From Pseudomonadota bacterium (GTDB taxonomy: Bacteria > Pseudomonadota > Gammaproteobacteria > Xanthomonadales > Rhodanobacteraceae): a stretch of DNA of 6,796 nt. Position numbers and translations under genes: made by a program. Location of the stretch: positions 1 to 6,796 of the forward strand of contig JAJZGE010000094.1 of the NCBI GenBank assembly GCA_021798675.1, given 5' to 3'. How positions within the stretch are numbered: position 1 is the stretch's first letter; every line of letters starts with the position of its first letter. Below, one piece after another: positions 2,252-4,535 of this stretch. The notes below the pieces were generated by a model. That model was not told where the DNA came from. It was given only the letters and a program-made list of their open reading frames with translations, and ran no database searches.

Positions 2252-2779
2252 TCAAGCTGATCCGCTGCCGCCCGTGCCGGGCAGTCCGCTTTCCATCAGG
2301 CGATCCAGGATCCGCACCAGCCAGGTCCGCTCCTCCTCGCTGAGCCGGGCCAGCACCTCGCGCTCGCGCGCCCGCGCCATCGGCGCGACCTCGTCGTGCA
2401 CGGCCCAGCCGGCGTCGGTGAGGCCCAGTACCGAGCGCCGCTTGTCGTTGTCGTGGATGCTGCGGCTGACCCGGCCGGCCTCGACCAGTCGGGCCAGCGC
2501 GCGGCTCACTGCCACCTTGTCCATCGCGGTGCGCTCGGCCACCTCGCGCGCGGACAAACCTTCGAAGCGCGCCAGCACCGCCATCACGCGCCATTCGGTG
2601 ACCGAGATGTCGTAGCGACGCTGGTAGTCGTCGGCGATCGTCTGGCTGATGGTGTTGGACAGGATCGACAGCCGGTAGGGCAGGAAATGCTCCAGCTGCA
2701 GCGGGGCGTGTTCAGCGGTGGCGGGAGCCGGTTGGCGCTTGGGGGTCACTGCGGCGTTGTTCCTTGCAATTGGTTTCAT
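2252..2779 (-). CDS. MarR-family transcriptional regulator, probable repressor of the tyrosine catabolic operon
   Basis: The product is 175 residues from ATG 2779. The winged helix-turn-helix is clear: dimerisation helices from about residue 29 to 55, then DISVTEWRVMAVLARFEGLS (57-76), recognition helix MDKVAVSRALARLVEAGRV (86-104), and a wing with HDNDKRRSVLGLTDAGW (109-125), which holds the conserved D.D.R and LT..G pattern. A C-terminal dimerisation helix follows. The first ~25 residues are low-complexity and not conserved-looking. ATG 2779 lacks a Shine-Dalgarno sequence. GTG at codon 11 (2749) has AAGGAA at 2765-2760 upstream and is an alternative start giving 165 residues. MarR proteins usually bind short palindromes near their own promoter and are often released by phenolic ligands. 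Here GTTTCATATGTAAC covers the gene start and the divergent hppD promoter. Regulation of hppD-hmgA-fahA by this protein is inferred from position; a tyrosine-pathway intermediate would be the expected ligand. Confidence 0.88.
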   Translation of the reverse strand: MKPIARNNAAVTPKRQPAPATAEHAPLQLEHFLPYRLSILSNTISQTIADDYQRRYDISVTEWRVMAVLARFEGLSAREVAERTAMDKVAVSRALARLVEAGRVSRSIHDNDKRRSVLGLTDAGWAVHDEVAPMARAREREVLARLSEEERTWLVRILDRLMESGLPGTGGSGSA

Positions 2780-2786
2780 ATGTAAC
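2773..2786. promoter_or_regulatory. Predicted MarR operator, GTTTCATATGTAAC
   Basis: This 14-bp near-palindrome is symmetric at 12 of 14 positions, centred on CATATG (2777-2782). It fills the spacer between the -35 and -10 of the rightward promoter, and on the other strand it covers the MarR start codon and the presumed transcription start. MarR dimers bind palindromes of this size. Binding here would block RNA polymerase on both strands, fitting autorepression plus control of hppD. That this particular MarR binds it is inferred. Confidence 0.55.
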
Positions 2787-2790
2787 TATA
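2785..2790 (-). promoter_or_regulatory. Possible -10 box (TATAGT) of the MarR gene
   Basis: On the minus strand TATAGT occupies 2790-2785, matching the TATAAT consensus at five of six positions. No -35 is recognisable 16-18 bp upstream. If used, the transcript would begin near 2778. It would then be either leaderless at ATG 2779, or carry a ~29-nt leader with AAGGAA ahead of the alternative GTG at 2749. The call is weak. Confidence 0.25.
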
Positions 2791-2880
2791 AAGGCAGAGG
2801 CGTCAGCCGCCGCCGGTCGGCAGCATGCGATGCCCAGCGCGCCATCCAAGCTTAGCGACAACTCACCGCAGGAGTGCGCC

Positions 2881-2916
2881 ATGCATGGCGTAATCAACTT
2901 CAGAGGCTTGCCATGA
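2881..2916 (+). CDS. Leader mini-ORF 1, MHGVINFRGLP
   Basis: This is an 11-codon reading frame. ATG 2881 is preceded by GGAG at 2871-2874, six bases upstream. Its TGA (2914-2916) overlaps the ATG of mini-ORF 2 in an ATGA arrangement, as in translationally coupled genes. The peptide has no tyrosine and one phenylalanine, and ends in Pro-stop. Whether it is translated is unknown; the support is the ribosome binding site, the coupling geometry and repetition of the design in the next two units. It could equally be a by-product of duplicated DNA. Confidence 0.4.
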   Translation: MHGVINFRGLP

Positions 2917-2948
2917 ATGGCGTAATCCACTTCGGAGGTTTGCCATGA
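2913..2948 (+). CDS. Leader mini-ORF 2, MNGVIHFGGLP
   Basis: This is an 11-codon frame in the second 32-bp unit. Its Shine-Dalgarno-like AGAGG (2902-2906) lies inside mini-ORF 1, six bases ahead of ATG 2913. Its TGA (2946-2948) overlaps the ATG of mini-ORF 3. Relative to mini-ORF 1 it carries H2N, N6H and R8G changes, with one synonymous change (GGC to GGT). It has the same GLP-stop ending. Translation is inferred, not shown. Confidence 0.4.
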   Translation: MNGVIHFGGLP

Positions 2949-2980
2949 ATGGCGTAACCAACTTCAGAGGCTTGCCATGA
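2945..2980 (+). CDS. Leader mini-ORF 3, MNGVTNFRGLP, coupled to hppD
   Basis: This is an 11-codon frame in the third unit. Its Shine-Dalgarno-like GGAGG (2934-2938) lies in mini-ORF 2. Its TGA (2978-2980) overlaps the hppD ATG (2977-2979), so a ribosome finishing here stands at the hppD start. The hppD ribosome binding site AGAGG (2966-2970) is inside this frame. Of the three it is the most likely to influence hppD expression directly, by termination and reinitiation. Confidence 0.45.
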   Translation: MNGVTNFRGLP

Positions 2981-4071
2981 ACGCCCAGCCCAACCTCGGC
3001 ATGCAGGTCACCACGTTCGACAACCCGCTGGGTATCGACGGCTTCGAGTTCGTCGAGTTTGCCGCACCAGCCGGGCGCACGGGCGAGCTGCACGCGCTGT
3101 TCCGGCGCATGGGTTTCAGCGCGGTGCTCAAACACCGCACGCGGGCGATCACCGTGTACCGCCAGAACGGCGTGAACTTCCTGCTCAACGAGGATCCCGC
3201 CTCCTTCGCCGCCGATTTCGCCGCCGCGCACGGTCCCTGCGCCTGCGGCTTCGCGATCCGCTTCCGCCAGCCGGCCGCCAAGGTCATGCAGACCGTGCTG
3301 GACAATGGCGGCGCGGCCATCGATCGGCGCGAGAGCAGCAAGGCGGTGAACGCACCGGTGATCAAGGGCATCGGCGACTGCATGCTGTACCTGGTCGACC
3401 GCTACGGCGACAGCGGCAGCATCTACGACGCCGACTACGCGCCGATCGAGGGCGCCGAGCCGAACCCGACCGGCTTCGGCCTCACCTTCATCGACCACCT
3501 CACGCACAACCTGCACTTCGGCAACATGCAGAAGTGGTCGGACTACTACGAGCGCCTGTTCAATTTCCGCGAGATCCGCTACTTCGACATCAAGGGCGCC
3601 AAGACCGGTCTGGTGTCCAAGGCGATGACCGCGCCGGACGGTATCGTGCGCATTCCGCTGAACGAGTCGGACGACCCGAAATCGCAGATCAACGAATATC
3701 TCGACGCCTATCGCGGCGAGGGCATCCAGCACATCGCCTGTTTCACCGACGACATCTACGCCACGGTGGAAAAGATGCGCGCGGCCGGGGTGGAGTTTCT
3801 CGACACGCCCGACGCCTATTTCGAGGTGATCGATCAGCGCGTGCCAAACCACGGCGAGGACGTGCCGCGGCTGCGCCGGAACAAGATCCTGATCGACGCC
3901 GATCCGGAAACCCGTCAGCGCAAGCTGCTGCAGATCTTCACCACCAACGCGGTCGGCCCGATCTTCTTCGAGATCATCCAGCGCAAGGGTAACGAAGGCT
4001 TCGGCGAAGGCAATTTCCAGGCGCTGTTCGAAAGCATCGAGCGCGACCAGATGAAGCGCGGGGTGCTGTAG
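2977..4071 (+). CDS. hppD: 4-hydroxyphenylpyruvate dioxygenase
   Basis: This cytoplasmic Fe(II) enzyme converts 4-hydroxyphenylpyruvate to homogentisate with O2, releasing CO2; it is the second step of tyrosine breakdown after transamination. The 364-residue product has the two-domain vicinal-oxygen-chelate layout of the family and its usual length. The iron ligands appear as H174 (FIDHLTHN), H252 (GEGIQHIAC) and E332 (GPIFFEIIQRKG), spaced 78 and 80 residues apart. This is close to H161, H240 and E322 of the Pseudomonas fluorescens enzyme as I recall them. The C-terminal GFGEGNFQALFESIERDQ helix, which closes the active site, is intact. ATG 2977 is set by AGAGG at 2966-2970 and by the ATGA overlap with leader mini-ORF 3. 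It heads a plus-strand run with the DUF559 gene, hmgA and fahA, and is probably controlled by the divergent MarR regulator through the palindrome at 2773-2786. Confidence 0.97.
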   Translation: MNAQPNLGMQVTTFDNPLGIDGFEFVEFAAPAGRTGELHALFRRMGFSAVLKHRTRAITVYRQNGVNFLLNEDPASFAADFAAAHGPCACGFAIRFRQPAAKVMQTVLDNGGAAIDRRESSKAVNAPVIKGIGDCMLYLVDRYGDSGSIYDADYAPIEGAEPNPTGFGLTFIDHLTHNLHFGNMQKWSDYYERLFNFREIRYFDIKGAKTGLVSKAMTAPDGIVRIPLNESDDPKSQINEYLDAYRGEGIQHIACFTDDIYATVEKMRAAGVEFLDTPDAYFEVIDQRVPNHGEDVPRLRRNKILIDADPETRQRKLLQIFTTNAVGPIFFEIIQRKGNEGFGEGNFQALFESIERDQMKRGVL

Positions 4072-4077
4072 CCATTG

Positions 4078-4119
4078 AGCCCCTCTCCCGTCGGGAGAGG
4101 GGTGGGGGAGAGGGTTCGG
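4078..4119 (+). repeat. Left inverted-repeat arm, with internal hairpin and the DUF559 ribosome binding site
   Basis: CCCCTCTCCC (4080-4089) pairs with GGGAGAGGGG (4093-4102) across a three-base GTC loop, a perfect 10-bp stem. The arm continues with GGGGGAGAGGG, which serves as Shine-Dalgarno for the ATG at 4122 with a seven-base spacer. The arm begins a few bases after the hppD stop. There is no T-tract, so it is not a standard terminator, though it could slow or stabilise RNA. Confidence 0.85.
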
Positions 4120-4121
4120 AC

Positions 4122-4535
4122 ATGCCGGAACGCATCAAGCCACCACTGCCCACCCAAACCCGCGAGCGTGCACGTAGCTTGCGCCGTGAGGGAACGGATG
4201 CCGAACGCAAACTCTGGTATCAGCTTCGTGCAGGCCGATTGAAAGGAATGAAATTCCGTCGCCAGCATCCTGTGCCGCCATACATCGTCGATTTCCATTG
4301 CGAGGCGAAGAAACTGGTCGTGGAGCTGGATGGTTCACAGCACAATCAGGCAGTCGACCGTGATCGCACGCGATATCTTGAAGCCCAAGGTCTGAAAGTG
4401 CTGCGCTACTGGGACAACGAAGTCATGCAACAGCTGGATGCGGTGCTCGAGGCGATCGTGAGCGCCGCTGGAAACCGAACCCTCACCCCCACCCCTCTCC
4501 CACCGGGAGAGGGGCTTGAAGGCGAAGCGCCATGA
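4122..4535 (+). CDS. DUF559 / Vsr-like endonuclease-fold protein
   Basis: The 137-residue product has the DUF559 pattern, related to very-short-patch-repair (Vsr) endonucleases and the PD-(D/E)XK fold. It contains a helix with [10 protein letters not shown] (27-36), then [16 protein letters not shown] (45-60), [13 protein letters not shown] (63-75), and [22 protein letters not shown] (79-101). D57, E68 and D70 are the likely metal/catalytic residues, and H74 is also conserved in the family. The substrate is unknown; action on DNA is inferred from fold. The core ends near residue 115. Residues 119-137 ([19 protein letters not shown]) are encoded by the right inverted-repeat arm and look like read-through, not domain. 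The start uses a Shine-Dalgarno sequence inside the left arm. The TGA (4533-4535) overlaps the hmgA ATG. Lower GC and softer codon choice than the flanking genes point to transfer. It has no evident role in tyrosine catabolism. Confidence 0.85.
4475..4516 (-). repeat. Right inverted-repeat arm, with internal hairpin, encoding the DUF559 tail
   Basis: This is the reverse complement of the left arm apart from three positions: one in the spacer and two in the hairpin loop. The 10-bp stem CCCCTCTCCC (4492-4501) / GGGAGAGGGG (4505-4514) with loop ACC is intact. Loop change with stem preservation suggests the hairpin is under selection or recently formed. It ends 15 bp before the hmgA ATG, and plus-strand translation through it gives the [12 protein letters not shown] sequence. 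Confidence 0.85.

Follow-up and report, generated by a model that had tools for sequence, protein, structure and literature searches.

What is an array of three short, mutually coupled reading frames doing immediately before hppD, and does it belong to that gene? The window (the whole stretch of 6,796 nucleotides analysed here, from a member of the Rhodanobacteraceae) carries marR in reverse orientation, hppD, a DUF559 gene, hmgA and part of a further gene, in this order, with the array placed between marR and hppD. The three 32-bp units can be read directly and were also recovered by TRF (2878-2981, period 32, 3.2 copies, 88% matches, 0% indels, score 173). Each runs from an ATG through 11 codons to a TGA stop with a spacing of -4 to the following start, and this spacing holds at three of three junctions, the last of them at the hppD ATG (Table 1). 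The sequences AGGAG, AGAGG, GGAGG and AGAGG lie six bases upstream of the four ATGs, in that order, and the start positions modulo 3 are 1, 0, 2 and 1, such that all three frames are used. As 32 is 2 modulo 3, tandem duplication of a unit re-forms the same overlap each time. An earlier note on this DNA had described the ATGA-coupled units ending on the hppD start, the Shine-Dalgarno-like sequence before each ATG and the shift of frame with each unit, and all three descriptions are confirmed. Its statement that eight of eleven peptide positions are kept needs correction: seven are common to all three peptides, and positions 2, 5, 6 and 8 vary.

Table 1. Features of the hppD leader and gene in the window.
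Feature	Coordinates	Strand	Basis or remark
Predicted hppD promoter (TTGCAA, 17 bases, TATAAA)	2764..2792	+	Read from sequence
Host Shine-Dalgarno AGGAG, taken over by the first mini-ORF	2870..2874	+	Sequence; position as in non-carriers
Unit 1, 32 bp	2881..2912	+	Mini-ORF MHGVINFRGLP, TGA 2914-2916
Unit 2, 32 bp	2913..2944	+	Mini-ORF MNGVIHFGGLP, TGA 2946-2948
Unit 3, 32 bp	2945..2976	+	Mini-ORF MNGVTNFRGLP, TGA 2978-2980 overlapping hppD ATG
Unit-supplied hppD Shine-Dalgarno AGAGG	2966..2970	+	-5.8 kcal/mol
hppD, 4-hydroxyphenylpyruvate dioxygenase	2977..4071	+	Pfam PF14696 E 2.3e-57, PF00903 E 5.3e-16; homologues

Among the matches listed, 52 of 80 homologues align with the hppD product from residue 1, which bears out the hppD start, and the other 28 from residues 2-5. 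Upstream of the array, the TTGCAA and TATAAA pair is likely to be the hppD promoter, judging from its sequence. This candidate overlaps a palindrome-like block adjoining the divergent marR; slightly altered forms of this block, TTGCAA..GGTTTCATATGTAACTATAA, are present in most of the hppD leaders compared. A consensus promoter scanner, which demands T as the final -10 base, found no site here. Between promoter and Shine-Dalgarno, the hppD leaders of the genus fall into at least two types, one with GATGGTGGCACGC...CATCGTGCACCGAC, which could form a hairpin, and a second with ...CAGCTTAGCGACAACTCATCGCAGGAG, to which the window belongs. On the other side of hppD, the gap before hmgA is occupied by the DUF559 (endonuclease-like) gene (window 4071-4523), with 49-nt inverted repeats on its flanks (4071-4119 and 4475-4523, 88% complementary). 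A DUF559 match just downstream of hppD was found in 22 of the 80 loci listed, two of them partial, and this gene is therefore likely to be a recurrent mobile gene in the hppD-hmgA gap.

Could such a chain arise by chance or by misassembly? Both strands of the 80 listed loci (693,103 bases) contained no chain of two or more ATGA-coupled mini-ORFs of equal length; the same bases held three two-unit chains of unequal length and 136 single couplings. Five dinucleotide-Markov sets, for which similarity between units was not demanded, yielded 2, 1, 0, 0 and 1 equal-length chains. The unit recurs in other assemblies, which makes an assembly artefact unlikely.

To place the array among its relatives, species genomes were scanned for hppD, giving at least 80 loci. 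The unit was present in one of the 80 listed, L003, labelled Dyella sp. S184; one other locus in this set (L020) had only 106 bases upstream. The genus of L003 was covered by 45 genomes, 43 of them with an hppD match and 42 with a readable leader (in G042 the 5' end is missing). Of these leaders, 37 are without the unit and five carry it: one copy each in G001 (the genome of L003) and G019, two each in G027 and G032, and four in G025. G032 is the nearest relative of the window, with 93% identity over 705 hppD bases. The earlier note had suggested that copy number could vary between strains; between related species it does, with 0, 1, 2, 3 and 4 units.

The leaders free of units help to define the insertion point. 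An empty site, CAGGAGAGCGCC|ATGAACGC, was found in 21 of the 42 leaders, and G001 and G019 each have a single unit exactly at the bar, as CAGGAGAGCGCC[unit]ATGAACGC. The host AGGAG of the window is at the place taken by the hppD Shine-Dalgarno in the empty site of non-carriers. The inserted sequence, ATGAATGGCGTAAYCNANNTNAGGAGNTTGCC or close to it, begins with ATGA, contains the 11-codon frame and ends in a Shine-Dalgarno sequence followed by GCC. An alignment and a profile were built from 13 distinct units, with identical rows and units 1, 3 and 4 of G025 left out; GCCATGAATGGCGT, parts of AGGAG and TTGCCATGA are fixed or nearly so among these, and the middle varies.

The same unit is not confined to hppD. 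A pattern search found it in six of 233 family genomes, and in two of these it stands at the start of a small gene after crcB, with four units in G042 and one in G027. By Pfam, the G042 pair is crcB (PF02537) and DUF190 (PF02641). Units were found in two of the 43 genomes of the genus with a DUF190 match and in none of the other 41, the match in G028 being a more distant relative in another setting. At the crcB-DUF190 junctions (L158 / L162), one of the four G042 copies has a TTG start, and the G027 copy has an early stop. The unit sits between ..GCC and ATGAA at both the hppD and the DUF190 sites, from which it follows that the host ribosome-binding site passes to the first mini-ORF and the gene receives a new one. 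Insertion at the start codons of different genes is therefore observed, and the presence of the same unit at the DUF190 start indicates that it is not a leader belonging to hppD. In G027, 2 of 32 bases distinguish the second hppD unit from the DUF190-site unit, and 1 of 32 distinguishes either of them from the G001 unit. The sequence GCCATGAA is present at both junctions, which fits a target-site duplication or simple copying over 8 matching bases alike.

Beyond these places the unit appears to be scarce. Only two occupied places were found, at most two of them in one genome (G027), and a profile search of the six carrier genomes gave no further copies above chance, suggesting that dispersal has been slight. 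Across the family, the profile matched 43 of 233 genomes at E <= 0.1, with only the six carriers below 1e-4; the next best E value, 0.0037, is as expected over 233 genomes, and the non-carrier matches were set aside as chance. An order-wide pattern search returned four of 398 genomes (G001, G019, G025 and G027), all known carriers; a class-wide profile search with stricter filters returned one of 369, again G001; and no match to the exact unit pattern was found in viral contigs. A looser 18-base pattern gave mainly chance matches in three genomes, the one exact match being at hppD of G001. Any AGGAG-ATGA duplication was found in seven of the 233 family genomes, four of them carriers; those in G116 (two places), G172 and G041 are of unrelated sequence. 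In G041, a 21-bp AGGAGCGAGAAATGAGTGG-type tandem repeat lies about 640 bases upstream of hppD (G041:C6:62021-62077, L267); as 21 is a multiple of three, this repeat is of another kind. We identified no machinery for moving the unit.

The hppD gene tree places the carriers in three regions. The window groups with G032, and G027 with G025 (here too lies G042, in which the 5' end is missing), and G001 and G019 stand among the non-carriers G009, G016, G017 and G018. Grouping the six hppD carriers as one clade was rejected (p-AU 3.6e-8, for one gene and with the group chosen after the carriers were known), and at least four changes of carrier state are needed on this tree; G001 and G019 as sisters were not rejected (p-AU 0.38). 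The hppD genes of G001 and G027 are 82% identical overall and 64% identical at third positions, and those of G027 and G019 are 60% identical at third positions. Despite this divergence, the units of G027 are nearly identical to those of G001 and G019, one base apart. Either the unit moves between genomes or sites, or its bases are strongly constrained, and its placement at two genes favours movement.

Taken together, we put the probability at roughly 0.6 that we are dealing with a small interspersed repeat which reaches start codons by insertion or by being copied into them, resembling in its working the mycobacterial interspersed repetitive units (MIRUs) that are said to go back to Supply et al. 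1997. Placed between the host GCC and ATGAA, a unit would leave the host ribosome-binding site to its own mini-ORF, make the stop of that mini-ORF overlap the gene start by four bases and supply a new Shine-Dalgarno sequence. Ribosomes would load at the host Shine-Dalgarno before unit 1, terminate at each TGA and begin again at the ATG that overlaps it by means of the Shine-Dalgarno sequence of the unit, a termination-reinitiation relay that would keep the downstream gene expressed. The repeat would be tolerated because it re-creates the start with -4 coupling; units would gain copies in place through slippage and would only rarely arrive at new sites, through lateral or ectopic copying. On this account, the role of the unit is probably to pass ribosomes on by its stop-start overlap, and not to yield a peptide of any use.

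The relay geometry proposed in the earlier note is supported, with -4 spacing at all window junctions, and translational coupling of this kind is established elsewhere (PMC6728339 and PMC10666635). Of the overlapping gene pairs tested in one study, 13 of 14 were strictly coupled (PMC6728339), and in published E. coli pairs removal of the Shine-Dalgarno sequence lowered restart in four of five. For menD-menH of E. coli, the final 15 nt of the upstream gene are enough for coupling (PMC10666635).

How much would such a relay change expression of hppD? The host AGGAG before unit 1 has a duplex energy of -6.9 kcal/mol against the anti-Shine-Dalgarno sequence ACCUCCUUA, followed within the window by -5.8, -10.2 and again -5.8 kcal/mol (the last for hppD). 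In the non-carrier leader of L001 the hppD value is -7.4 kcal/mol, stronger than that of hppD in the window. The new Shine-Dalgarno of the gene reaches -9.4 in G001, -8.6 in G027 and -8.5 in G042, and in G032 is slightly weaker than in L001, at -6.5. As the new sequence often equals or exceeds the empty-site one in strength, expression need not fall on insertion. Within each unit, AUGGC near the unit's own start can pair with GCCAU around the next start, and by this pairing the reading of one unit would free the next start. Against shuffles, the window array had a folding z-score of -2.13, and four single units scored -2.70, -1.76, -0.81 and -0.49; a self-opening fold that would hide the next start is suggestive only. 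Translation of hppD is probably changed modestly and not placed under a regulatory switch.

These same observations bear on the view, close to that of the earlier note, that selection has shaped the array into a regulatory relay by which hppD is tuned or buffered, with copy number and per-unit reinitiation setting ribosome delivery. The intact ATGA geometry of all three window units, the varying copy number and the fold that translation of one unit would undo at the following start are all as this view would have it, and the weaker Shine-Dalgarno supplied to hppD by the last unit would make the gene more dependent on delivered ribosomes. The unit Shine-Dalgarno is, however, stronger than that of the non-carrier in G001, G027 and G042, and the folding scores are weak to moderate. 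Coupling has moreover been lost in three of the four G025 units, and so is not indispensable. The last unit of that leader (L155) has lost its start (ATC) and, at 33 bases, is in frame with hppD; from its sequence it reads as a unit turning into plain leader. The earlier note had held that relatives with the repeats but lacking intact ATG/TGA overlaps would speak against its proposal: such repeats do exist, in three of four cases in G025 and in the single DUF190-site unit of G027, and the other units are intact. A leader set up to tune hppD is further disfavoured by the 37 unit-free leaders of the genus and by the occurrence of the unit before the unrelated DUF190 gene, and we consider this view unlikely.

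A simpler origin would be plain slippage duplication of the hppD start region, with no portable element involved. Copies within an array are often closest to each other, as with units 3 and 4 of G042, which are identical, or units 1 and 3 of the window, which differ at 2 of 32 bases, so that local duplication certainly adds copies. As a complete explanation it seems improbable, because it does not account for the recurrence of the unit at DUF190 in G042 and G027, and because the single unit of G001 and G019 is, beyond ATGAA, unlike the coding start of hppD.

Could the mini-ORFs instead encode a functional or sensing leader peptide, for example one responding to an amino acid? An intact 11-codon frame with -4 spacing was found in 14 of 18 units, the exceptions being units 1, 3 and 4 of G025 and the DUF190-site unit of G027 (early TGA); the search patterns contained start and stop codons, by which intact units are partly favoured in these counts, and the hppD leaders were also read directly. 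The frame, the M-N-G-V start and the L-P end do recur, but the M, L and P ends fall in the ATGA overlap and in the stretch from Shine-Dalgarno to start, and at codons 5-9 residues of different kinds freely replace one another (I/T/F, N/H/D, F/M/I/S/L, R/G and G/R/S). Over codons 2-10 of 11 units, the true frame gave a pN/pS of 0.47, against 0.46 for the +1 frame and 1.62 for the +2 frame; this set omitted the duplicates G019 and G042 unit 4, the TTG-start unit 2 of G042, the stop-bearing DUF190-site unit of G027 and the broken units 1, 3 and 4 of G025. With the true and +1 frames nearly equal, there is no sign of a constraint specific to the peptide. The peptides lack a run of one amino acid, no terminator-like site was found in 2700-3050, and Rfam gave no match at the array up to E 1, all of which count against a leader peptide or attenuator, and this explanation is very improbable. 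It is equally far-fetched that Rhodanobacter species exchanged promoter-leader segments laterally through homologous recombination, and that a single rare ectopic event linked hppD and crcB-DUF190. For all the near-identical units in distant species and the scatter of carriers on the hppD tree, the leaders around the unit differ from one carrier set to another (G001/G019, G027/G025 and the window/G032), with the result that long shared segments are not evident and only the unit itself is shared.

If the array is, as we think, a small repeat that re-creates start codons, with which known systems does it compare? Minisatellite (VNTR) arrays in 5' regions differ in copy number between relatives, and the present array likewise has tandem copies whose number differs; here, in contrast, every unit restores an entire start region that is in register with the gene start, and the unit occurs at a second locus. 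Leader peptides and attenuators of amino-acid operons place a short translated frame before a metabolic gene, as is the case here. The array differs from these in having no sensing codons, no attenuator and three coupled frames, and in that the same unit stands before unrelated genes. In the open-access literature we found no paper on an hppD leader peptide.

A parallel at the level of a single junction is provided by ATGA overlaps with termination-reinitiation, which share the stop-start arrangement and likewise have an intragenic Shine-Dalgarno ahead of the restart (PMC6728339, PMC10666635). Those overlaps join two protein genes, whereas here a chain of 11-codon frames leads into a gene. The natural series of 0, 1, 2, 3 and 4 units before the same gene is a ready-made experiment in harmless soil bacteria, and addresses how many successive rounds of termination and restart ribosomes can manage, a question left open by reporter work with two genes.

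MIRUs are dispersed at many places in one genome, a wide spread that is not seen here, where only two occupied places were found, in some members of a single genus. According to a 2025 review (PMC12548453), MIRUs appear mobile, insert at start codons with an internal ORF coupled at -4 spacing, and are likely to have minimal impact on the gene. The present unit is similarly a short start-codon repeat with an internal ORF coupled at -4 (in the 14 intact units), with tandem copies in varying number (0-4 between species) and with no obvious role for its peptide. Its length is also 2 modulo 3, which re-forms ATGA (32 bp here; 53 and 77 bp for the senX3-regX3 MIRUs, PMC4213456). Compared with MIRUs, the unit is half the length or less, belongs to Gammaproteobacteria and has a Shine-Dalgarno sequence in each copy. 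The remark in the earlier note that no leader of this kind had been described for hppD fits the open-access literature, which yielded no paper on a MIRU-like or tandem-repeat element in the Rhodanobacter group either; the kind of element itself has been described in mycobacteria (PMC12548453). It is possible, as a tentative extension, that a MIRU-like class targeting start codons exists outside mycobacteria, in the form of a 32-bp cassette that would land at GCC|ATGAA with a ribosome-binding site and a self-opening hairpin and would leave the host gene dependent on relay through all copies. By analogy, the Rhodanobacter unit appears to work like a MIRU, the likeness being one of working and not a claim of membership or of kinship in sequence. 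This suggests that start-re-creating repeats with stop-start coupling arose outside mycobacteria, in an easily testable short form.
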